Below are positions 39,088 to 62,354 of a DNA stretch of 64,000 bases, piece after piece. The notes beneath the pieces were generated by a model. That model made no database searches. It had not been told where the DNA came from and saw nothing but the letters and a program-made list of their open reading frames with translations. Both the position numbers and the translations under genes were made by a program. Source of the stretch: an uncultured Bacteroidia bacterium (GTDB taxonomy: Bacteria > Bacteroidota > Bacteroidia > Bacteroidales > UBA932); assembly GCA_902768665.1 (NCBI GenBank), contig CACXMA010000014.1:103265-167264 (forward strand), in the 5' to 3' direction. The number at the start of each line of letters is the position of its first letter. Position 1 is the first letter of the stretch.

Positions 39088-39138
39088 GGTTCTGCGAAAT
39101 GGTTTTCAACACAAAAAAGACAAACCCGCACCGGAATC

Positions 39139-39165: not shown

Positions 39166-39215
39166 TTTTTCTCCATTGGATTGTCTATGTAAAGAAGTAT
39201 TGAAAAACCACTATC

Positions 39216-41564: not shown

Positions 41565-41594
41565 AATCATATATTAACACTAAATGACAATAAA

Positions 41595-41744: not shown

Positions 41745-41756
41745 AAATGTGAAGCT

Positions 41757-43628: not shown

Positions 43629-43643
43629 TATATCATCAATCAG

Positions 43644-44921: not shown

Positions 44922-44939
44922 TCCGAAGCACGGATAAGA

Positions 44940-44968
44940 CAAGGCCGGAGGCGAAAGCTTCCGGCCTT
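44940..44968 (+). terminator. Terminator of the GH31 operon
   Basis: Stem aaggccgga/tccggcctt with inner gc pairs around gaaa, followed by tattgtgtt. It lies 19 bases after the stop of the last lipoprotein gene and next to the convergent hydrolase stop. Confidence 0.7.
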
Positions 44969-44975
44969 TATTGTG

Positions 44976-45842: not shown

Positions 45843-47684
45843 TTATTTCCGTTTGATATCTTTCCAGCCCGGATTCTGCAGCAGGGCCTGGTTGAGGCGG
45901 AGCTCGGATGTCGGGATGGGATAGAGATAGTCACGCTCCTCGTTGAAACCGTTGAAGCGGATGCTGTTGTAAGGATTGACATAGCCGGAAGTGCCGTCCG
46001 TCAGGAACAGCGGCGCCTCGCCGACATGGAATACAGGAACACCGGCGGGACCGTTGTTCTTGTCGGCCGCATCCTTGTAGATGTAGATGTCATCATGGGG
46101 GTTCCCATCCATCCCGGTCACATGGTCGAAATCATAGGAACCAAGACCCGGGAAATACATTCCATAGAGCTTCTGGTCGACACAGCGGCCCTGTTTCCAG
46201 CGCATCAGGTCGTACCAGCGGAAGTCGCCCTCCATGGCCAGCTCGACCATGCGCTCGCGGCGGATTTCCAGGATGACGCCCTTGTCGGGACCGGTGACGT
46301 TGTCATACCCATAGGCGGAAGAGCCCATGTAGTTGTCGTCCGGGTTCGCGTTGGCATCCGCCAGGGACAGGGCGGGCATGCCGGCACGGTCCCGCAGCGG
46401 CTTGATGGACTTGTCGAGGTCGGCCTGCGAGATATGGACGTCGGAACGCTCGGCCATGGCCTCGGCATAGTTCAGATACACCTCGGCAGCACGGTAAATG
46501 GGCATATCGTTGTCCTGCGGGCCCCAGCCCCAGGAGGGATAATCCTTCCAGGACAAAGCATATTTCACGGGCTGGTAACCGGTGAATCCATGATTGAAGT
46601 CCGCACAGAGCAGGGAATCCACGCCTTCGCGCTTGTAGCCGGGCACGCGGATGATCTGGCCGAGACGGGGATCGCGGCCGGTGGTCTCATCGTAGTACTC
46701 CATCGTCTCCCAGCCGGCCCGGTCTGTAAAGCGAGAACCGTCGGCCATCAGGAAAGCGTCCACGAACTTCTTGCTGAAGGAGTTGGACGAAGCCGTACCG
46801 AAGGTGTCATACGTCGCGAAATGGGATACCTGCAGGGTGATGGAATAGCTCTTGGCCAGGATCACCTCCGTCTCGTTCGACGTCGGCTGATTGAAGACAT
46901 GGGTGTAGTCAATCTCCGGATGACCGGTGGTGTAGATCGAATAGGGGGCGTTGTCAATGAAGTCAGACGACACGTCAGCAGCCAGCTTGAGGTAGTAGTC
47001 GGCGTCATGCCCGTAGACCTCGCCGGAAGAGGGGCTGGTGTTGCCGTGATACTTTCTCCAGGTGCCCTCAAACAGGCAGAAACGGGACTTGAAGGCCATG
47101 GCAGTCCATTTGGTCACATGGTAAAGGTCCTTTCCGGAAGGAAGGTTCGCGATGGCGAAATCGACGTCTTCCAGCATCTTTCCCATGATATAGTCGCGGC
47201 TGTCGCGCGCCTTGTACAGTTCGTTGTATTCGGATACGCCGAGCTCATGGTCATAGAACGGGACATCACCGAAATCACGGACCTTGTAGTAATAGAAATA
47301 GGCCCTGAAAAAGCGTCCGTACGCCTCATAGAGCGTGCGCGTCGCCTCATCCGGGCAATTGCCGAGATGGTCGAGGAGCGCATTGATCCGGGCGAGGTTG
47401 TTCCATTCCCAACCGCCGCCGGAAGACGGCGTCGTACGAAGGGCACCTCCACGCATGAGCGTACTCGGGCTTTTGGCCAGCAGCAGGTCGTTGGTCGCCG
47501 AGCAGAACGGACCGAAGAACGTGATCTGGTAGAGGTAGTTGGTATACGCCTCCATCTGTGAGGCATCCTTGAAATAGGTGCTTTCCGATTCCTTGTCCAG
47601 CGGAGACTGGTCAAGTCCTTCCAATTTGGCGACACAGGAGGCCGTCAAGACCGAAACGAGAGCGATTATTGCGATTCTTTTCAT
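45843..47684 (-). CDS. SusD/RagB surface glycan-binding lipoprotein (second pair)
   Basis: A 613-residue lipoprotein (LTASC, Cys17, then VAKLEGLDQSPLDKESESTY). The SusD hallmarks are present: LYEAYGRFFRAYFYYYKVRD, ILEIRRERMVELAMEGDFRW, and YLYPIPTSELRLNQALLQNP. It shares its layout with the SusD at 34269 (for example FLMADGSR and YLNYAEAMAERSDV) but differs widely in the binding regions. It partners the SusC encoded 7 bases upstream. Confidence 0.97.
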   Translation of the reverse strand: MKRIAIIALVSVLTASCVAKLEGLDQSPLDKESESTYFKDASQMEAYTNYLYQITFFGPFCSATNDLLLAKSPSTLMRGGALRTTPSSGGGWEWNNLARINALLDHLGNCPDEATRTLYEAYGRFFRAYFYYYKVRDFGDVPFYDHELGVSEYNELYKARDSRDYIMGKMLEDVDFAIANLPSGKDLYHVTKWTAMAFKSRFCLFEGTWRKYHGNTSPSSGEVYGHDADYYLKLAADVSSDFIDNAPYSIYTTGHPEIDYTHVFNQPTSNETEVILAKSYSITLQVSHFATYDTFGTASSNSFSKKFVDAFLMADGSRFTDRAGWETMEYYDETTGRDPRLGQIIRVPGYKREGVDSLLCADFNHGFTGYQPVKYALSWKDYPSWGWGPQDNDMPIYRAAEVYLNYAEAMAERSDVHISQADLDKSIKPLRDRAGMPALSLADANANPDDNYMGSSAYGYDNVTGPDKGVILEIRRERMVELAMEGDFRWYDLMRWKQGRCVDQKLYGMYFPGLGSYDFDHVTGMDGNPHDDIYIYKDAADKNNGPAGVPVFHVGEAPLFLTDGTSGYVNPYNSIRFNGFNEERDYLYPIPTSELRLNQALLQNPGWKDIKRK

Positions 47685-47691
47685 AGCTCAA

Positions 47692-50600
47692 TCAGAATTT
47701 GATATCCACGCCGAAGACATAGGTCGCCTGCCAGGGATAGGTAAAGCCCAGCACGATCGAACCCGTGGCCATCTGCTCGGGATCGATATAGGGATTGATC
47801 TTCTTCAGCTGCGACAGATACAGGAGGTTCTCGCCCGTTGCATAGATGCGGACGTTGTCCAGACCGATCCGGCTGGTGAGTTTGTTGGGGAGAGTATAGC
47901 CGAGGGTGACATTCTTCAGACGGAAGTATGCCATGTTCAGCAGGAACTTGTCATTCACGATGGTGACGTAGCTGTTGTTGTGGGCCATCTCGCCACGGGG
48001 ACGCGGGTAATACGCATCGGGGTTCGATTCGCTCCAGCACTTGTCCAGGAAGTCCCGCTGGATGTAGGTGGCGGCACGGTTGTACGGGCCCCAGAAAGCG
48101 GTATTGTCAGCCTGCGGGTAGCGGTGCATGCGTCCGATTCCCTGTCCGAAGACGGAGAAATCGATCCCGTTCCACTGGAGCGTCAGCGTGAGACCATATT
48201 GCCAGCGCGGACGGGAATTGCCGATGATCTGATAATCGCCGGAGTCGCCCACCTCGATGGAACCTTTATTGATCTCTCCGTCACCGTCCAGATCGCGGAA
48301 CTTGACGTCACCGGCCTTCCATCCGCCGTGGAGGAATCCGCCGACCTGGCTGCAATCCACACGGGAAGTATATTCCTGCGCCTCCTGGTCGGTCTGGAAA
48401 TAACCATCCGTCTTGAAGCCCCAGATCTCGCCGAAGGTCATGCCCGGATAGAAACTGCCCGGCATCTTGAGCGACACGTCGTATTCCACCAGTTTGGCCA
48501 CGTCGTCGCCAAGGGTAGCAACAGCGCTGTAAGTCAACGGCTTCCCGCGGAAGTTGAACGTATCCTTCCAGCCCAGGGAGAGTTCATAGCCCTGGGAGCG
48601 CAGCATACCGGCGTTCTTCTGCGGAACGCTGTTGCCGTAGACAGCCGGGAGGATGTCCCCGTCCACGATCATGCCGCGGGTCTCGCGGATGAAGAAGTCA
48701 CCCGTAAAGGTCAGACGGTCGTTCAGGAAGCCCCAGTCGAGGCCGAGGTTGTAGTGGCGGGTGTTCTCCCAGGTCAGTTCATCGGATTCCGGGCTCTCGA
48801 GCCAGGCCCCTTTGACAGGGCTGTCCCCACCGAACAGGTAGGACTGTTTTTCCATCTTCACGGAACGGATGAACATGTAGTAGTCACCGACGGCCTGGTT
48901 GCCCAGCTGGCCGATGGAGAAGCGGATCTTGCTGGTGGACCAGACGGGCGCGAGCGCGCTCCAGAAAGGCTCGTCGGACATCTTCCAACCGGCGGAAACC
49001 GACGGGAAGAAACCCCACTGATTGCCCGGCAGGAACTTGGAAGAGCCGTCGGCACGGAAACTCAGTTCGAACAGGTAACGTTCCTTCCAGTCATAGTTCA
49101 GACGGCCGAAGAAGCCCTCCAGCACATAACGGCCCTGCCCGCCGTTCACGTAATTGGTGCCGGTCGCGGTCTTGAAGTCGTTGATGTAGGTGGAGGAAAG
49201 GTCGTCGGCATAGGCATAATGGTTCTTGTAGTAGAACGTCTCATAGTTGCCGCCCAGCACGACCTTGAGGTTGTGGCTGTCGGCAAAAGTCTTCTGCCAG
49301 GTGGCGAAGAGGTTGGCCGCATTGTAGGTGGTATAGTTGTTCCACTCTTCGAGCCGGTTCATGAATCGGCCGCTGCGGTCCCATTCGATCTTGCCCGGAT
49401 ACTTGGAGTAGGATGCGTTGGTCCAGCGCGCCGAACCGTTCTCCTCGTTCTTGGTATAGGTATAGTTTCCCCGGATGTCCAGCCCCTCGAGGGGATGCAG
49501 CGAGAACTCGATCGTATTCGAGAAACTCTGCTTCTGGCGACGGTTCCTCTTGGTGTCATCGCCCAGCTCGATATGGCAGCCGTTCGTGACGTTGGAATCG
49601 GAGAAGATCGTCTTGTAGACCCAGGTCCCGTCCGGATTCTTCGCCGGCAGGGAGGCAAGGGCATGGACGCTGGAATAGCCGAAGGTATAGTCCACGGAGG
49701 CGTTGCCCGGGTAGTCATAGTCCTGGTTGTAGAAACTCATGTTGTTGCTGACGGACAGCCAGGAAGTGACGTTGAAATCCAGCTTGGAGCGGAGGTTGTA
49801 CTTGTTGAACTGCTCCGGACGCACCTGGAAGGTACCCTGCTTGTGCTCATAACCGCCGGAGAAGTAATACTTCACGGTCTTGTCACCGCCGCTCACCGAG
49901 ATATTGTGGTGGGTGAACGGGTTGAAGTCGGTATAGAGGGTATGGTACCAGTCGGTGTTGCAATAATAGATATAGGACTCCTTGCCGTTGCGCGTCTCGG
50001 TCAGGATCCATGGACGGTCGGGATTCTCGGTCTTGTCCCCCCGGCGGGCATTGAGCTGCTCCATGTCCGCGGCGGTGTAATGGGAATAGGGCACGCCGTA
50101 GCTTTCCCGCCAGAAGGAATCCAGGATGTTCACCGTATCGTAACCGCGGGTCTCATAATCCGTCCGGGTCGTCGGCGTCGTGAAACCGACATGCCCGTTG
50201 TAATGGACGACCGGTCCGCGTCCCGTCGCCGACCCCGACTTCGTCGTGACCAGAATGACGCCGTAAGCGGCCCTCGCACCGTAAATAGCGGAAGAGGAGG
50301 CGTCCTTGATGATGGAAATGGATTCCACGTCGGCAGGATTGACCTTGGCGAGGTCGCCGTTGACGCCGTCGACAATCACCAGCGGAGAACCGCCGTTGAT
50401 GGATGTATAGCCGCGGATGTTGATGGAGGCCTCGTTGGACGGATTACCGGAAGAGGTGGTCACGTACAGACCCGGCACGGTACCCTGCAGCATGTGCGTC
50501 AGGGAAGGCGACGTACGCTTCTCCAGTTCCTTGGAGGAGACCGCCGTGACGGCACCCGTCAGGTTCACTTTCTTGGTGGTACCATAACCGATGACCACCG

Positions 50601-50904
50601 TCTCTTCCAGCACCATGCTGTCCTCTTCCATCACCACTTCGACGACGCCCTGCGTGGGAGGGACTTCCAGCTGGACCGGGATATAGCCGAGATAGCTGAA
50701 TTCCAGCGTAACCGTCTCGTTGTCAGGGACCGGAATAGAGAAAGAGCCGTCAGCGCCCGTCATGGTTCCGTTGTCCGGGCCGCACATGACCACGACACCG
50801 ATCAAGGGGATCCGGTCTTTGTCGTAAACATAGCCCTTGACGGTCCTTGCCTGCAGGGCGACTGCCGAGAGCAGGGCAAGCGCAAGTATCAACAGTTTTT
50901 TCAT
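47692..50904 (-). CDS. SusC/RagA TonB-linked outer-membrane protein (second pair)
   Basis: I start at ATG 50904 (MKKLLILALALLSAVALQAR, signal peptide), giving 1070 residues; the open frame upstream overlaps the previous gene. No STN domain. The carboxypeptidase-D-like domain (about 22-95, VKGYVYDKDRIPLIGVVVMC) is followed by the TonB box and plug (ETVVIGYGTTKKVNLTGAVT, SINIRGYTSINGGSPLVIVD) and a barrel ending VFGVDIKF. The lack of STN means it is not tied to the ECF/FecR pair; regulation is more likely through the operator at 58044. It imports oligosaccharides with the SusD downstream. Confidence 0.97.
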   Translation of the reverse strand: MKKLLILALALLSAVALQARTVKGYVYDKDRIPLIGVVVMCGPDNGTMTGADGSFSIPVPDNETVTLEFSYLGYIPVQLEVPPTQGVVEVVMEEDSMVLEETVVIGYGTTKKVNLTGAVTAVSSKELEKRTSPSLTHMLQGTVPGLYVTTSSGNPSNEASINIRGYTSINGGSPLVIVDGVNGDLAKVNPADVESISIIKDASSSAIYGARAAYGVILVTTKSGSATGRGPVVHYNGHVGFTTPTTRTDYETRGYDTVNILDSFWRESYGVPYSHYTAADMEQLNARRGDKTENPDRPWILTETRNGKESYIYYCNTDWYHTLYTDFNPFTHHNISVSGGDKTVKYYFSGGYEHKQGTFQVRPEQFNKYNLRSKLDFNVTSWLSVSNNMSFYNQDYDYPGNASVDYTFGYSSVHALASLPAKNPDGTWVYKTIFSDSNVTNGCHIELGDDTKRNRRQKQSFSNTIEFSLHPLEGLDIRGNYTYTKNEENGSARWTNASYSKYPGKIEWDRSGRFMNRLEEWNNYTTYNAANLFATWQKTFADSHNLKVVLGGNYETFYYKNHYAYADDLSSTYINDFKTATGTNYVNGGQGRYVLEGFFGRLNYDWKERYLFELSFRADGSSKFLPGNQWGFFPSVSAGWKMSDEPFWSALAPVWSTSKIRFSIGQLGNQAVGDYYMFIRSVKMEKQSYLFGGDSPVKGAWLESPESDELTWENTRHYNLGLDWGFLNDRLTFTGDFFIRETRGMIVDGDILPAVYGNSVPQKNAGMLRSQGYELSLGWKDTFNFRGKPLTYSAVATLGDDVAKLVEYDVSLKMPGSFYPGMTFGEIWGFKTDGYFQTDQEAQEYTSRVDCSQVGGFLHGGWKAGDVKFRDLDGDGEINKGSIEVGDSGDYQIIGNSRPRWQYGLTLTLQWNGIDFSVFGQGIGRMHRYPQADNTAFWGPYNRAATYIQRDFLDKCWSESNPDAYYPRPRGEMAHNNSYVTIVNDKFLLNMAYFRLKNVTLGYTLPNKLTSRIGLDNVRIYATGENLLYLSQLKKINPYIDPEQMATGSIVLGFTYPWQATYVFGVDIKF

Positions 50905-50912
50905 AGATGTGA

Positions 50913-52430
50913 TTATTTTGCGGTGAAGGTTCCCAGGCGGTTGCAGCCCGTATTGGCATCCCACACGTTCTTGTTGGCGAAACGCACGCTATACTCGGGA
51001 CGGTCGTGCAGGTTGGGTTCGGCATCCGCGATACGGATGGAGAGCGTATATTTCTCACCCGCCTTCAGTCCGTCGGGAAGGACAAGGTTCTCCGTATGGA
51101 CATAATAGTGACTGCCCTGCCAATAGCGGGGATCGGTCGCGGATTTGATGACATACTGCTCGGAAGGATCGCTCTCGCTGCCGATCACGAATTCGAGGTC
51201 GTGGGGATTGATGAGCGAGGCAAAGCCGTAGTTGCCGAGGCAGAGTTTGACCTCGAACTTGCCGCCGGCTGTAAAGAGGCCGCTGAATACAGCTCCGTTC
51301 AGGACGAAACGGTAACCGACACGGGCCGAAGCGTCGTCATAGCAACCCTTCGCCTGCCAGATCTTGATGATGTCGTGGTGGTTGCTCAGATACGACCAGT
51401 GGAAGGTCCGCAGGTTCTTGTAGGAAGGGATGCACTGGCAGTACTTGTCATCGCCGACAAAGCAGGACTCTCCGCCCAGAGCGACATAGTTGGAGGAAGA
51501 GCTCCACAGGAGCCGGTCCGCCTCGTCTGCATAGGTACCGCCGTCATTGTAGTTGACGAAGGCGCAGTCGTTGAAGCAGGCGATGCGGGAAACATAAGAC
51601 CCGTCGAAGGCGGTGGCGACCGTGACGGAATCCCTCAGCTTGAAGGACTTGCCGGTAATGTCGGAGAGAGTCATCCTCATATGGGACGGGGTCCGGAGTG
51701 CGACCTGGCGACGGGCGGGAAGGGCGTCCAATACGGCTTTTACAATCTGGGAACGGTCCGAACGCTTGGTCACGTTGGTCGTGTACGCCCATTCGCCATA
51801 GGTCCCCACGAATCCCATCTGGACGACATAGATGATGTCCGCGAACTCCTCGAAAATGGGTTTCAGCTGGGCGATCTGCGCCAGGATAATCTCGGTATCG
51901 GGCTCCTGCTGGGTCTTGTCGCCGGCATCCCAATACCAGCTGTAGGCGAAACGGACAATCGTCTTGCAACCAGCCTCGCGCACCCGGGAGAAATGGGTCC
52001 GGATATGGGCCAGGACCTCATCAGAAATGACCGAATTCAAGAAATCGCACAGGTAGAAGTGGGAGAACATCAGCGAGCAGCCGCTTTCCCTCGTGCGGGT
52101 CATATCGGAGACGGACGCCAGTTTCGGGATGTTGCCGTTGATATAACTGTATGAGATGGGATTGTACGGACCACGCTCCGGGTTGGGGAAATTGGTCGGA
52201 TCGTATTCGAAGGTCTTGTCATATTCGAACGGCGCCTCCGGAACGATATAGGTCTGTACGACCTCGTCCGACTGCTCGGGCATGGCCCAGGCGCCGCTTT
52301 CTCCCGCCAGGACGACATCCTTCGAACCGGGATCGGGGTCGTCGTCAACCTTTTCCTCCGTCTTGTCGCAGGAAGAAGGTACGGCAATCATTACGGCCAG
52401 ACAGGCCCAGTAAAACAGTTTTCTTGACAT
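50913..52430 (-). CDS. DUF4832/DUF4874 lipoprotein (TIM-barrel-like)
   Basis: A 505-residue lipoprotein (SSC, Cys21) with acidic linker. DUF4874 region (about 75-260): FPNPERGPYNPISYSYI, FSHFYLCDFLNSVISDEVLA, GCKTIVRFAYSWYW, DIIYVVQMGFVGTYGEWAYT. DUF4832 region (about 270-500): TPSHMRMTLSD, GGESCFVGDDKYCQC, and a C-terminal beta domain ending RPEYSVRFANKNVWD. Family members occur in carbohydrate loci and look like glycosidases, but no activity is established to my knowledge. It is followed by SusC after 8 bases and preceded by a paralogue. Confidence 0.85.
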   Translation of the reverse strand: MSRKLFYWACLAVMIAVPSSCDKTEEKVDDDPDPGSKDVVLAGESGAWAMPEQSDEVVQTYIVPEAPFEYDKTFEYDPTNFPNPERGPYNPISYSYINGNIPKLASVSDMTRTRESGCSLMFSHFYLCDFLNSVISDEVLAHIRTHFSRVREAGCKTIVRFAYSWYWDAGDKTQQEPDTEIILAQIAQLKPIFEEFADIIYVVQMGFVGTYGEWAYTTNVTKRSDRSQIVKAVLDALPARRQVALRTPSHMRMTLSDITGKSFKLRDSVTVATAFDGSYVSRIACFNDCAFVNYNDGGTYADEADRLLWSSSSNYVALGGESCFVGDDKYCQCIPSYKNLRTFHWSYLSNHHDIIKIWQAKGCYDDASARVGYRFVLNGAVFSGLFTAGGKFEVKLCLGNYGFASLINPHDLEFVIGSESDPSEQYVIKSATDPRYWQGSHYYVHTENLVLPDGLKAGEKYTLSIRIADAEPNLHDRPEYSVRFANKNVWDANTGCNRLGTFTAK

Positions 52431-52445
52431 ATCGCAATGGTATTA

Positions 52446-53849
52446 TTATTCAGCCGTAAAAGAGTATATGAGGTTGTATCCTTTTTCCGCATCCCACATG
52501 TCCTTGTTGGCAAGGCGCACGCTGAATTCCGGATTGTCATGCAGCGTAGGAGCCGGATCGGGAAGATTCAGGTACAAACGGTAGGAAGTGCCGGCAACCA
52601 GCGTTTCCGGCAGGTCGATCCGGGTGTCCCAGAGGGTGGTGGTGCCCGCCTGCCAATACCGGGGATCCTTGTCGGTCGGGATGATCACCCGCTCCGACCC
52701 GTCTTCCCTTTCTATCACGAATTCCACCAGACGCGGGTTCATCAGCGAAGCGAACCCGTTATTTTTCACAGCCAGACGGACATGCATCGATCCGCCGGCT
52801 TCCCACTTGCCGTCGAAGGCCGCCTTTTCCAGGGACAGACGATACCCGAGACGCTTGTATACGTCCTCCAGGCATCCCTCATCCTCCAACAGGGCAAGTG
52901 CCTTTACATTGTACGCCGAATTGAGGTAAGACCAGTGATAGTCTTCCATGTTGCGGATCCCGCCGGTACAGTTGCAGTACTTGGCATCCGGGATGCAGGT
53001 TTCGCCACCCATGATGGTATAGCGGGTGTCGTTCTGCCACAGGATGCGGTCGACTTCCGATCCATAGGTCCCGGCATCCGAACCATTGGCCAGGAAACAG
53101 TCATTGTGACCGCCCACCCTTGACAGCGGCGATCCGTCAAAGGCCGTGGCGAGCGTGATCGTGTCCCGGAGTTTCGTCCCGAAGACACGGGTCTTGAAAG
53201 CGGGGGTTCGCAGCTGGATCTGCCGGGAAAGAGGCAGGGCATCCAGCAAGGCGTCCACCACCTTGCGCCGGTCGGAGTCCTTGCGGAAATGCGTACTGAT
53301 GGACCACTCTCCCCAGGAACCGATGAAACCGGCCTGCATGACATAAATGATGTCGGCATATTCACGGAGCAGCGGCTTCACCTGCTCGATATGCCGCAGC
53401 ACTCTGTCGACTTCCGGTTCCTTCGGCGAATCGCTTTCGGTGCCGGTATAGTTATAACAGAACCGTACGATGGTCTTGAGACCGGCCGCTCGGTGACGCT
53501 CAAAATCTTCCTTGATGGTGTTCAGGACTGCCGGTGACAGCTCTTCCTCCAGGAAATCACACAGATAGAACTGGGAGAACGACAGGCTCATATTCCTGTC
53601 GCGGATCGAGCGCATCTTCTCCACCGACACCGCCGGAGGGACATCCCCGTCCCGAAAATAGTACACGTTGGTCAGGTACATTCCTTTTTCGGGATTGATG
53701 AAATAACTGTCGTCGTATTCATAGACAGCGTCCGCCTCGAAACCGAACGGATCCGGGTCGGGGGTATCGGAAGAATCCTTCCGGCAGGAACCTGCTGCGG
53801 CGACAAGGCCGCAGCAGATTACTGCAGAAAGTATGCGCTTTTCCAGCAT
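52446..53849 (-). CDS. Second DUF4832/DUF4874 lipoprotein
   Basis: A 467-residue lipoprotein (AGSC, Cys22) aligned with its neighbour along its length: SYFINPEKGMYLTNVYYFRD, FSQFYLCDFLEEELSPAVLN, LKTIVRFCYNYTG, DIIYVMQAGFIGSWGEWSIS, GGETCIPDAKYCNCTGGIRN, and NPEFSVRLANKDMWDAEKGY. The Glu in GSWGEW and the aromatic residues around it are kept in both copies, consistent with a shared active or binding site. Tandem copies suggest division of labour on related ligands. It starts 6 bases after the CBM9-like gene. Confidence 0.85.
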   Translation of the reverse strand: MLEKRILSAVICCGLVAAAGSCRKDSSDTPDPDPFGFEADAVYEYDDSYFINPEKGMYLTNVYYFRDGDVPPAVSVEKMRSIRDRNMSLSFSQFYLCDFLEEELSPAVLNTIKEDFERHRAAGLKTIVRFCYNYTGTESDSPKEPEVDRVLRHIEQVKPLLREYADIIYVMQAGFIGSWGEWSISTHFRKDSDRRKVVDALLDALPLSRQIQLRTPAFKTRVFGTKLRDTITLATAFDGSPLSRVGGHNDCFLANGSDAGTYGSEVDRILWQNDTRYTIMGGETCIPDAKYCNCTGGIRNMEDYHWSYLNSAYNVKALALLEDEGCLEDVYKRLGYRLSLEKAAFDGKWEAGGSMHVRLAVKNNGFASLMNPRLVEFVIEREDGSERVIIPTDKDPRYWQAGTTTLWDTRIDLPETLVAGTSYRLYLNLPDPAPTLHDNPEFSVRLANKDMWDAEKGYNLIYSFTAE

Positions 53850-53855
53850 GACCGT

Positions 53856-54743
53856 TTACTTGAGGTTCAGGGTAAGCGGACCGACAACGCCGGTGTACTG
53901 ACCCCAGGAAGCAGACTCGTCGCCGTTCGCCATGGCAACGCCGAAAGCGACCTTGTTGCCGGAGATGGAGATCGGGAGGACATCCTTCTGGACAGCGAAT
54001 TCGATTTTCGCTACGCCGCTGGAGATGGCGGAAGCAATGTTCTCGAAGGAAGGAGCGATATTGTCGAGATTGGGATCCCAACCGCCTTCCGGATCCTTGA
54101 GGGACCACCAGTCACCCTGCTGATAGAAGTCGCCGTCGCAATTGTATGCATTGCCTTCGGCATCCTTAGTCGGAGCGATGACGACCTGGGACCAGCCAAG
54201 CTGGGCACCGCTGTCCGGATCCTTGGTGGAGATGAACAGATAGAGTTCAAAGCCCATTTCCAGGCCCAGACCCTCAACGTAAGGCTTCTTGGTTTCACCG
54301 TTCAGGTGCGGCAGGAAGCCGGTCTCGGCATTGGCGTCCGCGTCAAAATAGACATACAGAGGACCGGGCGTGCTATCGCCGTGACCATCGTTGGAGTTGC
54401 CGCCCGTATGGGCCGTCTCGGAGTGCTGGATCACATCCACGGAAACCTCCGTGTAGAAATAAATAAAGGTATCGTCGGAAGTGGCCTTCACGATTCTCAC
54501 CTTCTTCATGTCACCGGCAGGAGTGCCAACGACACTGTTCGACGTCTCGGCCGTGATGCTTTTCCAATCCTCGAAGTCACCGTCGATCACGATGCTCGCC
54601 TCTTCCTGATTATCGTCGCCACCGTCATCGGGGCCATTATTATTGTTGTTGTTCTCCTTGGAGTTGTCATCCTTGCCGCAGGAGAAAGCGGCCATCGCAC
54701 CGATCACCAGAAGGGTTGCGAAACGAAATAGATTCTTTTTCAT
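53856..54743 (-). CDS. Lipoprotein with CBM9/DOMON-like domain
   Basis: A 295-residue lipoprotein (FSC, Cys22) with an Asn/Asp/Gly-rich linker (residues about 25-48). The globular part opens with IVIDGDFEDWKSITAE, the typical start of CBM9-like (DOMON-fold) domains, with later FIYFYTEVSVDVIQ, YVYFDADANAETGF and EFAVQKDVLPISISGNKVAF. It probably binds glycan at the cell surface. It lies between the GH109 gene (23 bases) and the DUF4832 pair in the eight-gene operon. Confidence 0.75.
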   Translation of the reverse strand: MKKNLFRFATLLVIGAMAAFSCGKDDNSKENNNNNNGPDDGGDDNQEEASIVIDGDFEDWKSITAETSNSVVGTPAGDMKKVRIVKATSDDTFIYFYTEVSVDVIQHSETAHTGGNSNDGHGDSTPGPLYVYFDADANAETGFLPHLNGETKKPYVEGLGLEMGFELYLFISTKDPDSGAQLGWSQVVIAPTKDAEGNAYNCDGDFYQQGDWWSLKDPEGGWDPNLDNIAPSFENIASAISSGVAKIEFAVQKDVLPISISGNKVAFGVAMANGDESASWGQYTGVVGPLTLNLK

Positions 54744-54766
54744 GTTGGTATAAGGGTTATTATTGA

Positions 54767-56209
54767 TTATTTCATTGAACCGTCTGCGAACGCATACTTG
54801 AATCCGTCAGCGTCCTTCCAGGCACCACGGGTGAAATCCGGCACCTCAACCGGTGCGCAGCCATTGTCCATGGAGATTTCTCCCAAAGGGCCGAGGCAGC
54901 ACCATTCCGCGAGGTCGTACACGTCCATGTCAAGCGGCAGACCATAGTGAAGGCAGTAGATGAGGCGGTAGTCCATCAGGAAATCCATGCCGCCGTGGCC
55001 ACCCACCTTTTTGGCCTTCTCCTCCAACTCGTCGTCAAGGATCGGACTCGGGAACATCCCGTGGAGCTTCGCGACCACCTCTTCGGGAAGCGGAGCGTGC
55101 TGATTGTCGATATGGTAGTCGATTCCCAGCGAATCGAGACCGTCCTGGCGGAGGGAATACATCTCAACCGGATACTTGGCGGCATATCCTTTCGTACCCA
55201 CCAGCTGATACATGCGGTCATAGGGACGCGGCGTCAGCACGTCGTGCTCGATCAGCAGGGACTTGCCGTTCACGGTACGGATCAGGGTGCAGGTGAGGTC
55301 ACCGTTGCGGAATGCCTCCGCCTCCTCGCCTTCGAAATAGTCGCTGCGCTCCTTCTTGGCGTTGAAAGAGGCCTGTCCGTTCACGGAACGGGTGTCCATG
55401 GCGACAAGCGTCTCGAAACGGTCGCCACGGTGGATGTTCAGGGCCTGGGCGACAGGACCGAGGCCATGGGTCGGATAGACGTCGCCGCGATGGCGATAAT
55501 TGAAGTCCAGGCGCCAGTTCTCCCAGTAGTCATCCCAGTAGTCCGACAGGTTGTGCAGATAGGAACCTTCGGCATGGAGAATCTCGCCGAATACGCCTTG
55601 ACGGGCCATTTCCAGCGTCGTCAGCTCGAAGAAATCATAGCAGCAGTTCTCCAGCATCATGCAGTGCAGGCGCGTCTTTTCGGCCATATTCACCAGCGCC
55701 CAGCATTCCTCCAGGGAAGTGGCCGCCGGAACCTCGATGGCGACATGCTTGCCGTGTTCCATCGCATACAGTGCGATCGGCGTATGATGGGCCCAGTCGG
55801 TGCAGATGTATACGAGGTCGATGTCGTCGCGCTCGCACAGCTCCTTATAGCCTTCCAGTCCGGTATAACCTGCCGGAGCCTCGAACCCCTGTTCCACGAG
55901 GAAATTCGTCGAATTATCGACCTTCTCGGGCAGCACGTCGCAGAGGGCGACGACCTTCGTCCAGGGAACATTCGTATAGCGATAGACGGCAAACGCGCCT
56001 CGGGCCCCCAGGCCGACGAAGCCGATCCGGACCGTATCGATGGGGTCCGTCCGAAGACCGATCACATTCTCCTGCCCATCCGGCCGGGCGGGGACATCCG
56101 TCTTGATGACGGAAACGGTACTGCCGGTATCTTTGTTGCCGCAGCAGGCGGCAAGAAGGGCGGCTGCACTGAGGAGGCAGGCAAGCCTGCCGATGACTGT
56201 TTTCTTCAT
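54767..56209 (-). CDS. GH109-type Gfo/Idh/MocA glycosidase (alpha-N-acetylgalactosaminidase-like)
   Basis: A 480-residue lipoprotein (LLAAC). The Rossmann fold begins IDTVRIGFVGLGARGAFAVY; CTDWAHHTPIALYAMEHGKH and VAIEVPAATSLEECW are the GFO/IDH pattern. The GH109 block follows: MMLENCCYDFFELTTLEMAR, ILHAEGSYLHNL, FNYRHRGDVYPTHGLGPVAQ, and HGGMDFLMDYRLIYCL. GH109 enzymes use bound NAD+ to remove alpha-linked GalNAc with a transient oxidation. Here it acts after or beside GH20, one base downstream of it. Substrate is inferred from the family. Confidence 0.9.
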   Translation of the reverse strand: MKKTVIGRLACLLSAAALLAACCGNKDTGSTVSVIKTDVPARPDGQENVIGLRTDPIDTVRIGFVGLGARGAFAVYRYTNVPWTKVVALCDVLPEKVDNSTNFLVEQGFEAPAGYTGLEGYKELCERDDIDLVYICTDWAHHTPIALYAMEHGKHVAIEVPAATSLEECWALVNMAEKTRLHCMMLENCCYDFFELTTLEMARQGVFGEILHAEGSYLHNLSDYWDDYWENWRLDFNYRHRGDVYPTHGLGPVAQALNIHRGDRFETLVAMDTRSVNGQASFNAKKERSDYFEGEEAEAFRNGDLTCTLIRTVNGKSLLIEHDVLTPRPYDRMYQLVGTKGYAAKYPVEMYSLRQDGLDSLGIDYHIDNQHAPLPEEVVAKLHGMFPSPILDDELEEKAKKVGGHGGMDFLMDYRLIYCLHYGLPLDMDVYDLAEWCCLGPLGEISMDNGCAPVEVPDFTRGAWKDADGFKYAFADGSMK

Positions 56210-56210
56210 T

Positions 56211-57998
56211 CTATTTGATAATTAAATCTTTGCCTTCTTCGTAAGACATTTCCCACGGGCCCTTGCGGGTTTGCAGGAATTCTTCCAGTTCTTCCGGCGT
56301 TCGGGCGGGCTGCTCATAACCGGGCATGCCGACCGTCCCCCAGGTATATTTACAATAGGTATAGCCCATGGCCTCATATATGGCGGCCGAGTGGTCCAGC
56401 GCCGCGCGGAAACGGTCCCAGTCACGGGCTCCGGGAGCTTCCCACTGCACTTCGCAGAGCGCGGCGAGACGGGGCAGCAGCATATACTCGAGATACTCGT
56501 CGCTGCCGATGAACTCGGTCCAGAGGTTGGCCTGCACACCGATGATATGGGATTCGGCGTCTTCCGCCACACCCTCGCAGGGTTCATAGGTGTACATCAT
56601 TTCCGTCGTCAGGCAGGCACCGATCGAGACCGGCTCGCGGTCCCATTCCTCGCTGTTGTACCGGTCGATATACATGTAATAGCCCGGTGCCATGATGGCG
56701 TCGAAACCTTTCGCGGCCGCCCGGATGCCCGGTTCGATGCCGCGCCAGGACATGATGGTCGCTCCGGCATCCAGGTCTCCCTCGAGGATTTCCTCCCAGC
56801 CGATGATTTTCCGACCCTTGGAGGCAAGGAACTTCTGGATCCGGTTCGTGACATAGCTCTGGAGATACTGCTCCGCCGTGTGGCCGTTCCGGTCCCGTAG
56901 GCCCAGTTCGCGGATGCGGGCCTGGCAGCGGGGGCATTCCTCCCAGCGGACCTTGGGGCATTCGTCACCGCCGATGTTGATGTATTCGGACGGGAAGAGG
57001 TCCAGCACTTCGGTGAGGACGTCTTCCAGGAATTCGAAGGTCTTCTCGTTGCCCACGCACAGCACATCCGGCTTGACACCCCAGGTAGTCGCCACCTCAT
57101 ACGGTCCGCCGGTACATCCCAGTTCGGGATAGGCGGCAAGGGCCGACATCATGTGGCCCGGAAGATCGATCTCGGGAATGACCGTGATGCCGCGTTCGGC
57201 GGCATAAGCGACCACGTCACGGATTTCATCCTGCGTATAGTAGCCGCTGTAGGGCTGGTGGTCGAGGCTGTCCCGCCAGTGGGCCACCTGGGTCTCCTTG
57301 CGGACGGAACCGACTTCGGTAAGGCGGGGATATTTCTTGATTTCGATGCGCCAGCCCTGGTCCTCGGTAAGATGCCAGTGAAAGCGGTTTACCTTGTAGA
57401 GCGCCATCACGTCAAGGCAGCGCTTGATTTCTTCCGCGGAGAAGAAATGCCGGCCGGCATCGATGAGCACGCCGCGGTAGGAAAAACGGGGGCTGTCCTG
57501 GATCTCGGCGAACTGTACGCGATATCGCGTTCCGCGGGTGTCGGGATTGAAATAAGAGGCCGGCAGCATCTGGGCGAGGGTATGCACGGCATTCAGCAGG
57601 CCGCTTTTGCAGGAAGCCGTCACGGTGACGCCGTCTTCATCAATTTTCAGCAGATAGGCATCCGGGGACGGACCCGCCTCCCCTTTCACCAGACGGATGC
57701 CCCTGCCGAAAGAAGACGGGGCTCCCGTCGTCATTTTCCCGTTCATTCCGGACAGTTCGGCAAGGCGGGCGGAGAATGATCCGGCCACGTCGGTCCCTTC
57801 GGCGCCCAGGGCCTCGTCCACATAGAAATCGGCACCGGTCAGTTCGAAGAAACCCTCTCCAAGGGTTACCGACTGGGGATACGGGATAACGCTGAAAGGA
57901 ACGTCCTCAAAGGCGTAATCGCCCGGGGTCTTGTTGCCGCACGATGCCAGGGTGGCAAGCAGGGAAATGGCGGCTGTCAGTATGGTGGCCTTTTTCAT
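56211..57998 (-). CDS. GH20 beta-N-acetylhexosaminidase lipoprotein
   Basis: A 595-residue lipoprotein (LASC, Cys20). An N-terminal GH20b domain (about 35-155) is followed by the catalytic barrel: YRGVLIDAGRHFFSAEEIKR, LTEDQGWRIEIKKYPRLTEV, VIPEIDLPGHMMSALAAYPE, and the catalytic pair Asp345-Glu346 in INIGGDECPKVRW. Also KIIGWEEILEGDL and TIMSWRG of the substrate site. It releases terminal GlcNAc/GalNAc from host or bacterial glycans. It heads the eight-gene minus-strand operon and its start is 46 bases from the palindromic operator. Confidence 0.95.
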   Translation of the reverse strand: MKKATILTAAISLLATLASCGNKTPGDYAFEDVPFSVIPYPQSVTLGEGFFELTGADFYVDEALGAEGTDVAGSFSARLAELSGMNGKMTTGAPSSFGRGIRLVKGEAGPSPDAYLLKIDEDGVTVTASCKSGLLNAVHTLAQMLPASYFNPDTRGTRYRVQFAEIQDSPRFSYRGVLIDAGRHFFSAEEIKRCLDVMALYKVNRFHWHLTEDQGWRIEIKKYPRLTEVGSVRKETQVAHWRDSLDHQPYSGYYTQDEIRDVVAYAAERGITVIPEIDLPGHMMSALAAYPELGCTGGPYEVATTWGVKPDVLCVGNEKTFEFLEDVLTEVLDLFPSEYINIGGDECPKVRWEECPRCQARIRELGLRDRNGHTAEQYLQSYVTNRIQKFLASKGRKIIGWEEILEGDLDAGATIMSWRGIEPGIRAAAKGFDAIMAPGYYMYIDRYNSEEWDREPVSIGACLTTEMMYTYEPCEGVAEDAESHIIGVQANLWTEFIGSDEYLEYMLLPRLAALCEVQWEAPGARDWDRFRAALDHSAAIYEAMGYTYCKYTWGTVGMPGYEQPARTPEELEEFLQTRKGPWEMSYEEGKDLIIK

Positions 57999-58043
57999 AG
58001 GAGGGTCAAGTGTCTTTTACAAAGACAAGGAAATAACGTCCGA

Positions 58044-58059
58044 GGGTAGTCCACTACCC
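58044..58059. promoter_or_regulatory. Candidate operator: gggtagt-cc-actaccc palindrome
   Basis: A perfect inverted repeat with a 2-bp spacer, centred between the GH20 operon start (46 bases) and the lipoprotein start at 58106 (47 bases). Same half-sites as 39139-39165, where the spacer is 11 bp longer, about one helical turn. tggattgtcttatgta follows at 58072-58087; on the minus side TGTCTTTG (58028-58021) resembles a -7 box with one mismatch. Confidence 0.65.
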
Positions 58060-58105
58060 AAAAACAAGGCATGGATTGTCTTATGTACGATTAACTATGC
58101 CGATA

Positions 58106-59536
58106 ATGAAAAAACAGTATCTGTTCATCCTGATCCTGGCTCTTCTCGCCATCGGATGCTCCAAAGAGAATTCCGATGCACTGGCCGATTCCTTCACCCT
58201 CGAAGTGACGATTCCGGAAGGGACCGCAGCTTCCGACGAAGTGTCCATCGCCGGACCCTGCTTCGCCGAGAATCTGATCCTTTCCCCGAAGTACGCCCGG
58301 GTTCGCACCATCGAAATCAATCCCGGGGACTTTGTCTCCGGCAAGTCGCTCGAAGACGGCTTCTGGTTCGAATCCGCCGAGCTGGGACGGGAACTTGACG
58401 CCGACGGCTCCCCCGTCACCCATACGATGAAGGGCGCGGCCGGGTATACCTACCAGGTCTCAGTCGCCCGTTGGACGAAAGAAAGGGTCGAGGATCTTAC
58501 GGAACAGAGGGTCAGCAGCTCCTGGTCGCTTGTCGGAACGATGAATGAATGGAGGCTTTCCCTGGGCCTTCCGCTGACAGGAACCGGAGACAGCCGTGTC
58601 CTCAAGGATGTAAACTGCAATGGAACAGATGCCTTCAAACTGGTCCTGGACAATTCCTGGATCATCAATTACGGCATTGGTGAACCCAACACCGTCACCC
58701 GGGTAGACAAATCGTCCGTCACCCTGACGAGGGACGGCGGCAGCATCCAGCCCGCCCCCGGCGTCTATACGCTCAACTTCAACCCCAGAACCTGCGTCCT
58801 GGCGCTGGACAAGACCGGCGAGTACATTCCCGATCCAGAGCCGGACAGCTGGGCAGTAACCGGTGCCTTCAACGGATGGGCGATGGATACGGCCATCCCG
58901 CTCTCCTTACAGAAAAACGGCCTCTACACCGCCTCTTATGTCGGCCTGACCCAGGCCACGGAAGCGGACGGCGAGGAAGCCGGATTCCTGCTCGTCAAGA
59001 ACGGTTCCATGGAGGGATTCCTCGGACGGGCTGGCGGCAGGGGCACGGTCTCCGTCGGCAGCGCCACGGCATTGGAGGAAGGGGGCGGAAAGATGCTGGT
59101 CCCCGCCAATGGCTACTACGAATTTAGCCTGGATCCGAAGAATCTGACGGTTACGGTCAGCGACAGCCCGGCAGCAACTCAATCCTCCTGGTCCATCGTC
59201 GGAAAGTTTAACGGATGGGACCAGACTGCCGGTATTCCCTTCTATACTTACGGCACCTGGCATGTCGCCAAGAACGTAGAACTGACGATGGTCAACGGCG
59301 CGAATGACATGGGATTCAAGTTCGTCAAGGACAAATCCTGGGACAACAACCGCGGCATCACCGGCATGAGCGGCGGCGACGGCGGGTACAAGGTCGTCGA
59401 CCTGGATACCGAAATCTCCCTTGCCCAGGGCGGCGGAAACATCCAGCTCCCGGAAGAAGGATTCTACGATGTGTATATGAATGCCGCAACGGACAAGGCC
59501 TACATCCTCAAAGCCGGCAGCGCCTTCCTGCACTAG
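58106..59536 (+). CDS. SusE/F-like starch-binding lipoprotein
   Basis: I start at ATG 58106 (MKKQYLFILILALLAIGC, lipobox Cys18); an in-frame ATG 9 bases upstream is possible. Its 476 residues hold the same N-terminal domain as the lipoprotein at 37612 (VSIAGPCFAENL, DFVSGKSLEDGFWFESAELG) and three SusE/F-like beta modules, starting SSWSLVGTMNEW, DSWAVTGAFNGW and SSWSIVGKFNGW, the last ending FYDVYMNAATDKAYIL. Conserved Trp residues would stack on glucose rings. It is divergent from the GH20 operon over the operator. Confidence 0.82.
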   Translation: MKKQYLFILILALLAIGCSKENSDALADSFTLEVTIPEGTAASDEVSIAGPCFAENLILSPKYARVRTIEINPGDFVSGKSLEDGFWFESAELGRELDADGSPVTHTMKGAAGYTYQVSVARWTKERVEDLTEQRVSSSWSLVGTMNEWRLSLGLPLTGTGDSRVLKDVNCNGTDAFKLVLDNSWIINYGIGEPNTVTRVDKSSVTLTRDGGSIQPAPGVYTLNFNPRTCVLALDKTGEYIPDPEPDSWAVTGAFNGWAMDTAIPLSLQKNGLYTASYVGLTQATEADGEEAGFLLVKNGSMEGFLGRAGGRGTVSVGSATALEEGGGKMLVPANGYYEFSLDPKNLTVTVSDSPAATQSSWSIVGKFNGWDQTAGIPFYTYGTWHVAKNVELTMVNGANDMGFKFVKDKSWDNNRGITGMSGGDGGYKVVDLDTEISLAQGGGNIQLPEEGFYDVYMNAATDKAYILKAGSAFLH

Positions 59537-59557
59537 GAAGGTTCGAACTGATCGGGA

Positions 59558-60550
59558 ATGACGGTTACAGGATCTTCCGGCCGTGGTAAAACTACCATGG
59601 ACATCGCTGGGAAGAAGAATTTCAACGATATGCTCTTCTGGGTCGATGTCAACAAAGAAGGCGCAGAACAGTGGATCAAAGGCTATTTCAAGAGCCTTGG
59701 CGTGAGTTATCTCAGGATTGACTTCCTTGAGAACTATGAACGCAACTATGGAACTGCTGCATATGACAAAGCCCTCAAATGGATTGCGGAGGAAGCCGGT
59801 GACGATCTTTTCCTCAGCCTGGTGATGCCGAACTGCTATCACCATGGCAAGACGGAGCTGAAATACGGCGATATGATCCGTGTGGACGATGATTGCTTCA
59901 AGGGTGGCTGGGACTTCGCCAGTTCCCGCCGCCGCGGACAGCATAAATCTTCCTGGCCGCAGTATGGAAACGCTTTCGACGGCATGGTTGCCTTCTCAGA
60001 TGTAGCAGCCAAAGGACAGATGATTCTTGATGGTGACTTCATGCGTTTGAATACGATGGCTACCAAAGAGGAAAAGCAGTTCCTATACTCATTAATGGTC
60101 ATGGGCGGCTCTGCACTGACAATAGCTGACCAGTATGACACCATCGGCAATGCCGTAGAAATTTATCAGAATCGGGAAATGATTGAACTGAATGACCTGG
60201 GATTCGTCGGCCGTCCTTTGAGCCGCAGACTCTCGAGTGGGAACAGTTCCCGCTGGGTTGGACAGCTTCCCGATGGCGACTATATAGTCGGCCTGTTTAA
60301 TCGAGAAGAAGATACGATTCAAAGTGGGATCGACTTCTTCAAAGAACTAGGAATCAAAGAGGGCGCCGTAGAGAATGTGAGAGATTTATGGCAACATCAA
60401 GACCTTGGGGAAATGTGTGAGAAATACACTACCGCACTTGCTCCCCACAGTTGCAAAATCTTGAGGATTCGCCCTAAAGGGAGTAAACGCTACCAAGCGG
60501 AGTTTGCTTCACCCAAAGGCGGCGTCACCACAAACATAGCAAATGAGTAG
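59558..60550 (+). pseudogene. 5'-truncated clan-D (GH27/GH36-like) glycosidase
   Basis: The 330-residue frame starts abruptly: MTVTGSSGRGKTTMDIAGKK has no signal peptide and then NFNDMLFWVDVNKEGAEQWI enters the middle of a barrel. Catalytic-like residues are Asp in SYLRIDFLENYERNYG and in GDMIRVDDDCFKGGWDF; DGDFMRLNTMATKEEKQFLY and GGSALTIADQYDTIG match the clan-D end of barrel. An N-terminal part is missing, and base use changes at about 59.6 kb, so I read it as a deletion or recombination junction. It may still be translated with the overlapping next gene. Confidence 0.65.
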
Positions 60551-60959
60551 TTGGTTGAAAGGGTTAATGGTTATTTTGGTTGGGTGTTCCGCAGCTTTTT
60601 TCTGCTCCTGCAAAAAAAGCTGCGGGATGTCTTATGTGCCGGAAGTATTAACCGAGGAGCAGTTCAGCGGAGCTGGATATGCCCAGGGATTTGACTCCCA
60701 GGAAGGAAAGCTGGTATTCACTGTTTCCAGTCAATCTGCGTCTACGGTTTACTTGACAGTACGCGGACGCGGTGAGGCGGAGGCCGATATTGACGTAAAT
60801 GGAGAGTGCGCTTCCGTCGTTTTTGATGACGGCGAAAAGTGGCAGGAAGTAACGGTATCCGTCCATCTGCAGCCAGGCGAGAATACAATTACCCTCAAGC
60901 AATCAAATTCAGGTTCATCTCCCCTGATGGTTGACTACATTGAGTTTCAAAATGAATAG
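60543..60959 (+). CDS. Small CBM6/CBM35-like lipoprotein
   Basis: A 138-residue lipoprotein (FFCSC, lipidated Cys near 23). The mature part is a beta-sandwich typical of carbohydrate-binding families 6/35: EGKLVFTVSSQSASTVYLTV, ADIDVNGECASVVF, and LQPGENTITLKQSNSGSSPL followed by MVDYIEF. It overlaps the end of the glycosidase frame by 8 bases, and the CotH gene starts right after its stop, so the three are translationally coupled. It may present glycan to the enzymes. Confidence 0.7.
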   Translation: MSSWLKGLMVILVGCSAAFFCSCKKSCGMSYVPEVLTEEQFSGAGYAQGFDSQEGKLVFTVSSQSASTVYLTVRGRGEAEADIDVNGECASVVFDDGEKWQEVTVSVHLQPGENTITLKQSNSGSSPLMVDYIEFQNE

Positions 60960-62354
60960 ATGAAGATAGTACCACATCACATCGGTTTAGCTTTGTTCCT
61001 GCTGCTGGCACTCACCGGCTGCAAGAAAGATGTTATCTCCGATAATGGAGAAAACACTCCAAAGACCGGATATGATATGGTATTTGATTCAGAGGACGTT
61101 CCTGTTCTATCTCTCAAGGTGTCCCAGAACGAGTGGAACCGGCTTCTGGAGGCGTATGATGCCGACCATAATACCAGGGAATACGTCCATTGTGATGTGG
61201 TTTTCGATAAGCAGGGCAAACAGTATGCGGTTTCGGATGCGGGTCTCAGGCTTCGTGGGCAAACCTCACGACGCAGACCAGAGGGCGAAGAAGGCCAGAA
61301 ACATGGCGTCGGGAAATGGCATAGATGCCACTTCGGCCTGAATTTCAGGAAATTCCACAAAGGAGATGATAATTATGACCTTGACGGAGTCCACAGGATT
61401 AATTTGAAATATGCCAAAGAGGATCCTTCCTATATCCGGGAAAAGTATTGCTTTGACCTGCTGCAACGGATGGGTATTTGGACCGCAGAAAGAGCGTCTT
61501 GGTGCCGACTCTACATCCAGGTGGAAGGTTATGCCGTTCCAGTATATATGGGCGTCTATTTGATGATGGAGGCTATTGAGGACGAGTTTATCGAAGAGAG
61601 GAAAGAGTTCCAAGGTGATGATGGCTTCCTATGGAAATGCGGTTGGGGTGCTAATCTCAGGGATACGGATGACTGGCGCTTTGGCGTGGATGAGAACCTG
61701 GGGACAGCCTATGCCTATGAGCTGAAGACGCATAAGAAGAAGTTTGACAAGGGAAAGGAACAGCTCTGCAGGTTCATTCGCGCAGTCAAAAGTCTCTCCG
61801 GAGCAGAATTTCAAGTATGGATAGAAAAACATTGTGATGTGGATCTATTGCTCCGGACATATGCAGTCTTCATCGCTGTTGGCCACTGGGATGATTACTG
61901 GAATGACATGAATAACTTCTACCTGTATTTTAACAGTGACGATCCGGATAACTATCGGATTTATATGATTCCCTATGACATGTATAACACGCTGGGAACG
62001 ACGCATAATTGTGGCGTCCAGAGTGATGCCGGAAGGCATGATCCATTCAACTGGGGACTTGATGAATGCATTTTCATCTCCAAAATCTTGAGTATTGAAG
62101 AATATCGTTCCAGGTATAGGGATTATTTGAAGGCTATCGCTGCACCCGGGAGCGAGTTTACATACGAGAAAAGCATCGTCAGGATTAGAGGATGGCAGGA
62201 TCTGATACGCCCGTATTTGGCCAACGCAACAGGAGAAGACCAGGAAATACAGGATTTGCCGGCTTCCTGGTCAAACAATCGTTGGTACCGGATAATGGAG
62301 GATGGCTCCAACAACTGGTTCAGAATCAAATGTAGTGTCCTATCTGCACTTTGA
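60960..62354 (+). CDS. CotH-family lipoprotein (second copy)
   Basis: A 464-residue lipoprotein (LTGC, Cys21). It aligns with the CotH at 36093: LSLKVSQNEWNRLLEAYDAD, LRLRGQTSRRRPEG, CHFGLNFRKFHKGD, IAVGHWDDYWNDMNNFYLYF, IYMIPYDMYNTLGTTHNCGV, and a C-terminal LPASWSNNRWYRIMEDGSNN. The catalytic-like WDDYWN...NN block is kept. It begins immediately after the preceding stop. Role at the surface unknown; its pairing with a SusE/F-like lipoprotein mirrors the first locus. Confidence 0.88.
   Translation: MKIVPHHIGLALFLLLALTGCKKDVISDNGENTPKTGYDMVFDSEDVPVLSLKVSQNEWNRLLEAYDADHNTREYVHCDVVFDKQGKQYAVSDAGLRLRGQTSRRRPEGEEGQKHGVGKWHRCHFGLNFRKFHKGDDNYDLDGVHRINLKYAKEDPSYIREKYCFDLLQRMGIWTAERASWCRLYIQVEGYAVPVYMGVYLMMEAIEDEFIEERKEFQGDDGFLWKCGWGANLRDTDDWRFGVDENLGTAYAYELKTHKKKFDKGKEQLCRFIRAVKSLSGAEFQVWIEKHCDVDLLLRTYAVFIAVGHWDDYWNDMNNFYLYFNSDDPDNYRIYMIPYDMYNTLGTTHNCGVQSDAGRHDPFNWGLDECIFISKILSIEEYRSRYRDYLKAIAAPGSEFTYEKSIVRIRGWQDLIRPYLANATGEDQEIQDLPASWSNNRWYRIMEDGSNNWFRIKCSVLSAL

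Follow-up and report, generated by a model that had tools for sequence, protein, structure and literature searches.

A palindrome between divergent glycan operons of an uncultured Bacteroidales bacterium very probably arises where the -35 elements of two ECF sigma factor promoters abut

Introduction

A perfect inverted repeat, GGGTAGT-CC-ACTACCC, is present between two divergently oriented gene units of a glycan cluster in the draft genome of an uncultured Bacteroidales bacterium, and the question raised by this locus is which regulator, if any, recognizes it. The initial annotation of the window (the entire 64,000-nucleotide stretch of DNA analysed here) suggested a regulator encoded elsewhere in the genome, acting besides the ECF/FecR pair. 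According to the available excerpts of PMC11501099, pairs of ECF and anti-sigma factors, alongside HTCS, are the most common PUL regulators in Bacteroides, and the prediction of ECF promoters is termed challenging in those of PMC3878776. The accessible part of PMC7366714 indicates that an ECF motif was not then known for B. thetaiotaomicron and that one was known for EcfO of B. fragilis, and a significant motif was not found for SigW-1 (PMC12596196, partial text). For an ECF-controlled PUL, the 5' ends were mapped, and the ACTACCC motif is not given in the excerpted text (PMC11501099). Among the matches listed for published titles and abstracts, none described an ACTACCC or CTACCC motif for ECF factors, although such a motif may be in print elsewhere. 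Rewiring of ECF specificity was reportedly addressed by Todor et al. in 2020.

Results and discussion

Palindrome and gene organization of the cluster

The palindrome was confirmed at positions 58044-58059 within the intergenic stretch 58020-58106; its distances to the flanking start codons are 45 nt (ATG at 57998, minus strand) and 46 nt (ATG at 58106, plus strand). The same half-sites were also confirmed between a second divergent gene pair at 39.1 kb (39139-39145 and 39159-39165), where they are 13 bp apart. Both regions are located in a glycan cluster with the following genes and predicted gene units:

29312-29869, plus strand: ECF sigma factor of 185 aa that is predicted to read five promoters
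29908-30783, plus strand: FecR anti-sigma factor (PF04773, 56 bits; PF16344, 57 bits)
30788-34264, plus strand: SusC-type TonB-dependent transporter with an STN signalling domain (STN 1.8e-7, residues 49-91; Plug 2.1e-15)
34269-36089, plus strand: SusD-type protein
36093-39087, minus strand: unit of the 39119 promoter, comprising 37612-39087 (CBM26 match below cut-off) and 36093-37595 (CotH)
39216-45782, plus strand: unit of the 39159 promoter, GH31 with a thioredoxin-like domain followed by three ORFs with no Pfam match over cut-off
45843-57998, minus strand: unit of the 58024 promoter, GH20, GH109-type, an ORF, two DUF4874/DUF4832 proteins, SusC and SusD
58106-62354, plus strand: unit of the 58053 promoter, SusE/F, a Melibiase_C protein, a CBM35-like protein (below cut-off) and CotH

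The ECF, FecR, STN-bearing SusC and SusD genes (29312-36089) make up the sensor unit. The ECF protein matched Sigma70_r4_2 with 66.1 bits (cut-off 25.7) and Sigma70_r2 with 22.2 bits, just under the cut-off of 24 (Pfam), and its family profile matches solved ECFs over nearly the full length. The FecR protein, with one strong hydrophobic stretch at residues 51-69, is the only FecR found in the draft genome. For the second SusC (47692-50964), an STN match was not listed by Pfam, and a single sensor would therefore serve both SusCD pairs. Two details of the initial annotation had to be revised: the minus-strand unit at 45843-57998 counts seven genes instead of eight, and the GH97 label was not confirmed, Melibiase_C being the sole Pfam match of 59558-60550. 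Within the GH20/GH109 unit, two neighbouring proteins (50913-53849) each carry a DUF4874-DUF4832 pair. A small ORF at 41595-41744 (start MKKTKLYLPPK) resembles by eye another one (start MKKNYLPPV) at about 297-431 of the related locus L090, the latter being placed directly 3' of an ECF-type promoter. Beside the cluster, region 11781-25718 encodes a phage-type integrase, GmrSD-type and type I restriction-modification proteins, a RhuM-type protein and a WYL regulator.

The symmetry by itself was dropped as evidence because inverted repeats of the same geometry (7-bp arms, 2-bp loop) occur nine times in the 64-kb window, the one at 58044-58059 being the sole intergenic case. Likewise, ACTACCC alone showed no enrichment in the window, with 5 observed versus 3.72 expected. 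The genome search for inverted half-sites proposed in the initial annotation, run as GGGTAGT-N0-30-ACTACCC on the 2.03-Mb draft (about 88% complete), returned two places only, both inside the glycan cluster. The arrangement is far from chance.

Predicted promoters in the window and in the genome

In all four half-sites of the two divergent regions, TTGTC is located 15-16 bp downstream of ACTACCC, and the combined pattern ACTACCC-N14-17-TTGTC was observed four times in the window versus 0.01 expected. A relaxed scan detected a fifth copy, GCTACCC-N15-TTGTC, between the ECF and FecR genes. The sites have an ECF-type layout, consisting of a -35 element and a GTC-type -10 element at a rigid spacing of 15-16 bp, upstream of the target genes:

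29860-29886, plus strand: GCTACCC-N15-TTGTC, predicted to be the ECF promoter of fecR-susC-susD (+1 predicted near 29895)
39119-39145, minus strand: ACTACCC-N15-TTGTC, predicted to be the ECF promoter of the CBM26-like/CotH unit (+1 predicted near 39110)
39159-39185, plus strand: ACTACCC-N15-TTGTC, predicted to be the ECF promoter of the GH31 unit (+1 predicted near 39194)
58024-58050, minus strand: ACTACCC-N15-TTGTC, predicted to be the ECF promoter of the GH20/GH109/SusCD unit (+1 predicted near 58015)
58044-58059, no strand: the palindrome, read as a back-to-back pair of -35 boxes separated by 2 bp
58053-58080, plus strand: ACTACCC-N16-TTGTC, predicted to be the ECF promoter of the SusE/F-type unit (+1 predicted near 58089)

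For the +1 predictions, GTC was numbered -11/-10/-9 after the accessible part of PMC6411747, and the five predicted starts would result in leaders of 13-23 nt. The predicted promoter at 29860-29886 begins within the last codons of the ECF gene, and this placement, after the ECF gene and before fecR, is kept in relatives. In the whole draft genome, CTACCC-N15/16-TTGTC matched five times, all in the cluster and one ahead of each of the five gene units, compared to zero matches for the reversed-pattern control. The form ACTACCC-N14-17-TTGTC had a single further match in the genome, within a coding ORF on another contig. The motif is absent upstream of the ECF gene in the window, and the model needs basal expression of the ECF from another promoter.

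Conservation in relatives

In eight ortholog neighbourhoods analysed together with the window, intergenic VCTACCC-Nk-NNGTC was found 14 times with k=15, once with k=16 and three times with all other k from 4 to 31. Seven genus orthologs had sequence downstream of the ECF gene up to fecR, and the FecR-like frame was confirmed in all of them. Five of the seven had the standard form of the site, and the remaining two had GTTACCC-N15-GTGTC and ACTACCC-N15-TCATC.

A wider scan of named genomes (Bacteroides, Prevotella, Segatella, Parabacteroides, Phocaeicola, Tannerella and others) covered the best 80 of 160 loci, from which 8 loci with >90% identity were removed to give 72 non-redundant ones; the relatives were picked via one sigma-4 peptide, and this helix is common to all of them by selection. 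In the non-redundant set, CTACCC-Nk-NNGTC followed the ECF gene with k=15 in 48 cases and k=16 in three, the other spacings from k=3 to 31 adding up to five. ACTACCC was the commonest 7-mer after the ECF gene (52/72 loci), and its inverse GGGTAGT was found there in 0/72, i.e., the half-site stands alone and in a single orientation. With a loosened -10, a site was present within 400 bp after the ECF gene in 66 of the best 80 of 160 loci and was still missing in 14. A FecR-like frame was present after the ECF gene in 68 of the same 80 loci. It was the next frame downstream in 59 of 60 loci with the site (the contig ends there in the remaining one) versus 9 of 20 loci without it, and the sites and the FecR partners therefore go together. 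L143 also had a second match, AGTACCC-N15-CGATC, which was left aside as surplus.

Distances between half-sites were variable (0, 2, 13 and 67 bp), while the distance from -35 to -10 was constant at 15-16 bp. The values of 0 and 67 bp between the -35 boxes belong to two relatives, G098 and G065, respectively, which also have back-to-back pairs. The pair in G065 (L085, 10609-10729) is located upstream of the ECF gene itself, and this ECF may be autoregulated, unlike the one in the window.

The genome-wide counts in relatives did not exceed the controls: ACTACCC-N15-NNGTC gave 60 matches in 12 named genomes versus 101 for the reversed control, and, among 199 genomes of the genus, the exact motif never had more than two matches in any other genome, as in the control. 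The regulon is therefore local and cannot be mined by the pattern alone, the signal being visible only at the cognate positions. At the junctions of weaker ECF paralogs, TACCC was found in 0 of 21 (two of them cut short) and CTACCC in 0 of 39, a set overlapping with the 21.

Covariation of the -10 element with ECF residue 83

The base directly 5' of GTC in the -10 element is either T or C, and it tracks position 83 of the ECF: N occurs with T, and D, S or E occur with C. In the window, residue 83 is N (codon 29558-29560). All 55 rows compared fit this rule (N-T 22, D-C 29, S-C 2, E-C 2), with a mutual information between position 83 and the base of 0.97 bits and a z of 26.9, compared to 6.3 for the next-best ECF column. 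When variant -10 tails were included, agreement extended to 59 of 59 rows with a site, i.e., 58 plus the window, with 14 of the 72 loci left out because they lacked a site of an accepted form. A quick ECF tree made with column 83 excluded requires at least 12 changes of the residue and at least 11 of the base. The best tree gave 11 independent pairs, but only three of these, which all agree, lie on branches with strong support (sign test, p 0.25). Thus, the covariation, which may reflect specificity set by the cognate ECF, is strong, yet the independence of the residue-base match is only partly established, since just these three independent pairs are on well-supported branches.

The rule was also followed in a held-out set of 13 loci. 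All seven counted cases with a post-ECF site obeyed it (L207, L209, L232, L235, L238, L239 and L240). Their ECFs share no more than 64% identity with those of the first set, and six of the seven are distinct and at most 52% alike, L235 and L238 being 98% alike. Four further loci, L231, L233, L236 and L237, were 97-100% like earlier rows and were not counted. The site was absent after the ECF gene in L234 and in L056, the latter having a paired site elsewhere (L090), and it was not found in L236 (same as L157). The junction site was missing in L237 (G755, same as L150), as in L234 (G684), and both genomes bear one elsewhere in the stretch compared. Across 18 neighbourhoods (the window included, some being near copies), 24 intergenic sites had the expected base and none had the swapped one; 22 of the 24 were already in the earlier sets, and the two new ones, in G684 and G755, are away from the junction. 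Extra intergenic sites with the own code were present in three of the 49 named neighbourhoods with a post-ECF site (four sites in total, none with the swapped base), and the cluster-wide spread of the promoter, as in the window, looks unusual within the stretches compared.

Among 25 loci of order-level ECF relatives, five had the VKYH sigma-4 helix. Three of these five had sites, namely L207 (TTTACCC), L208 (identical to L168) and L209, and L206 and L212 were without a site. In the other 20 order-level loci, TACCC matches in L218, L227 and L228 had odd -35 letters and were taken as chance; of these, L218 and L227 do not follow the residue rule. Another ECF clade, characterized by the sigma-4 helix NTVRNQ, was encountered in other genomes of the genus, where TAGTACT and then CGTC follow the ECF gene in 8 of 19 paralogs examined (L058, L062, L064, L065, L069, L073, L075 and L076). 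This clade has D at the position of residue 83, in agreement with the D-C rule.

In E. coli sigma-E, the counterpart of residue 83 in the alignment is the N of KNYL (N84). By a constant offset, residue 83 corresponds to N92 of M. tuberculosis sigma-H, and the latter contacts the -11 base pair according to the excerpted text of PMC6411747. The -11 base pair is adjacent to the varying base, and the alignment thus puts residue 83 at a place where it could plausibly make a direct contact. In the loci with E at this position (L166, L168 and L208, the last identical to L168), the -10 is TCATC, i.e., its G becomes A as well, which hints that the residue might read two neighbouring base pairs. We consider a one-residue code in the PUL sigma factors of Bacteroidales fairly probable: residue 83 in region 2.4 would read the -12/-11 step (N with TG, D/S with CG, E with CA), and the sigma-4 helix would set the -35 (TVKYH with ACTACCC, TVRNQ with TAGTACT).

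Interpretation of the palindrome

With high probability, judging from the sequence comparisons, the palindrome consists of the adjoining -35 elements of two promoters that point away from each other and are read by the ECF encoded at 29312-29869. The cluster's own ECF is the predicted regulator, and an outside one is not needed. The statement of the initial annotation that the window encodes no suitable regulator set aside exactly this protein, the likeliest one. Its view of a functional-looking site, common to 58 and 39.1 kb and implying joint control, still holds. The half-sites are better read as directional -35 boxes, with a TTGTC -10 at a constant distance, than as a dimer operator for an outside regulator, and in place of a regulator beyond the ECF/FecR pair, we predict the ECF of that same pair. 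Of the two outcomes named there as speaking against its reading, neither occurrence at random genome positions nor lack of conservation was observed, the motif being confined to the cluster and kept in relatives.

An operator for a dimeric regulator encoded elsewhere (LacI, AraC/HTCS, SusR or similar) that coordinates both regions would explain the perfect dyad at 58044-58059 and the repetition of its half-sites at 39.1 kb, and the spacings of 2 and 13 bp differ by about one helical turn. However, the half-site spacing varies further in G098 and G065, whereas the distance to NNGTC is fixed at 15-16 bp, and this combination of free half-site spacing with rigid -35/-10 spacing is the opposite of what characterizes a dimer operator. 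Furthermore, the half-site at the ECF-FecR junctions is lone and one-way, and the -10 base covaries with the ECF. This reading was rejected on account of the variable spacing and the lone half-sites, and we regard it as very unlikely. A combination of sigma promoters with an extra regulator recognizing the palindrome of the abutting -35 boxes is also unlikely, albeit less so. Such additional layers exist in Bacteroides, where BT4338 is also needed for activated transcription of an ECF-controlled PUL (PMC11501099, partial text), but apart from the two promoters, no sequence feature found requires one, and the palindrome spacing varies between relatives.

Promoters of the housekeeping sigma factor, sharing their sequence by accident, would fit the location of the regions directly upstream of start codons. 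Yet ACTACCC/TTGTC differ from the Bacteroidetes consensus with TTTG at -33 and TAnnTTTG at -7 (as quoted in the accessible part of PMC7366714), and neither the restriction of the motif to a single cluster nor its covariation with the ECF would be explained, which makes this origin highly improbable. A palindrome arisen by chance and without function, as the count of nine such inverted repeats in the window might suggest, has hardly any probability in view of a motif that is confined to the cluster and conserved at the matching place in relatives.

For the promoters of the cluster's own ECF, we infer transcription, sigma binding, FecR release and an inducing glycan as parts of a single chain of events. 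A glycan bound by the STN-bearing SusC (30788-34264) and SusD would cause a signal to pass via the STN domain to the periplasmic part of FecR, which would then release the ECF. The released ECF would bind core RNA polymerase and direct transcription from (A/G)CTACCC-N15/16-TTGTC, starting fecR-susC-susD (29860) and the four units served by the back-to-back pairs at 39.1 and 58.0 kb, so that one sensor should switch the entire cluster. Back-to-back pairs with -35 boxes only 0-2 bp apart might be mutually exclusive, with the divergent operons competing for the same sigma factor.

The rigid spacing, the constant position downstream of the ECF gene and ahead of fecR, and the base that follows one sigma residue together provide a testable promoter prediction. 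The motif would show which operons belong to which sensor and could yield orthogonal promoter-sigma pairs for gut Bacteroidales. If the residue code is true, one could read from sequence which promoters and regulons belong to many glycan-sensing ECFs that are so far uncharacterised. The back-to-back pair also shows how a palindrome can arise without a dimeric regulator.

Comparison with known systems

The kind of system, i.e., ECF/FecR/SusC control, is already known. In E. coli, FecI/FecR/FecA responds to iron citrate and has one target operon. It shares with the cluster trans-envelope signalling via a TonB-dependent transporter, FecR and an ECF; it is not known to have back-to-back paired promoters. 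The PULs of Bacteroides controlled by ECF, FecR-type anti-sigma factor and SusC are closer: according to the excerpts of PMC3878776 and PMC11501099, they have the same sensor unit of ECF, anti-sigma factor and SusC, with one sensor per glycan cluster and a predicted sigma release. In contrast to those, the predicted promoters themselves were identified here, five in the cluster and four of them as back-to-back pairs. With M. tuberculosis sigma-H and E. coli sigma-E (PMC6411747, accessible part), the promoters share a GTT/GTC-type -10 read by sigma-2 and a rigid -35/-10 spacing, and the sigma-H residue equivalent to position 83 makes contact with the -11 base pair. The -35 differs, being ACTACCC instead of the GGAACA of sigma-H, and in the clade described here residue 83 tracks the adjacent base. 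Within the same phylum, the excerpted texts assign a CGT -10 to SM6, an ECF motif of F. psychrophilum in Flavobacterium (PMC9723704), and print for SigP of P. gingivalis a motif unlike ACTACCC-N15/16-TTGTC (PMC4800418), and both SM6 and SigP serve secretion-system genes. Compared with the motifs of SM6, SigP and sigma-H/sigma-E, the promoter class and the residue-base match of the glycan cluster appear to be new.
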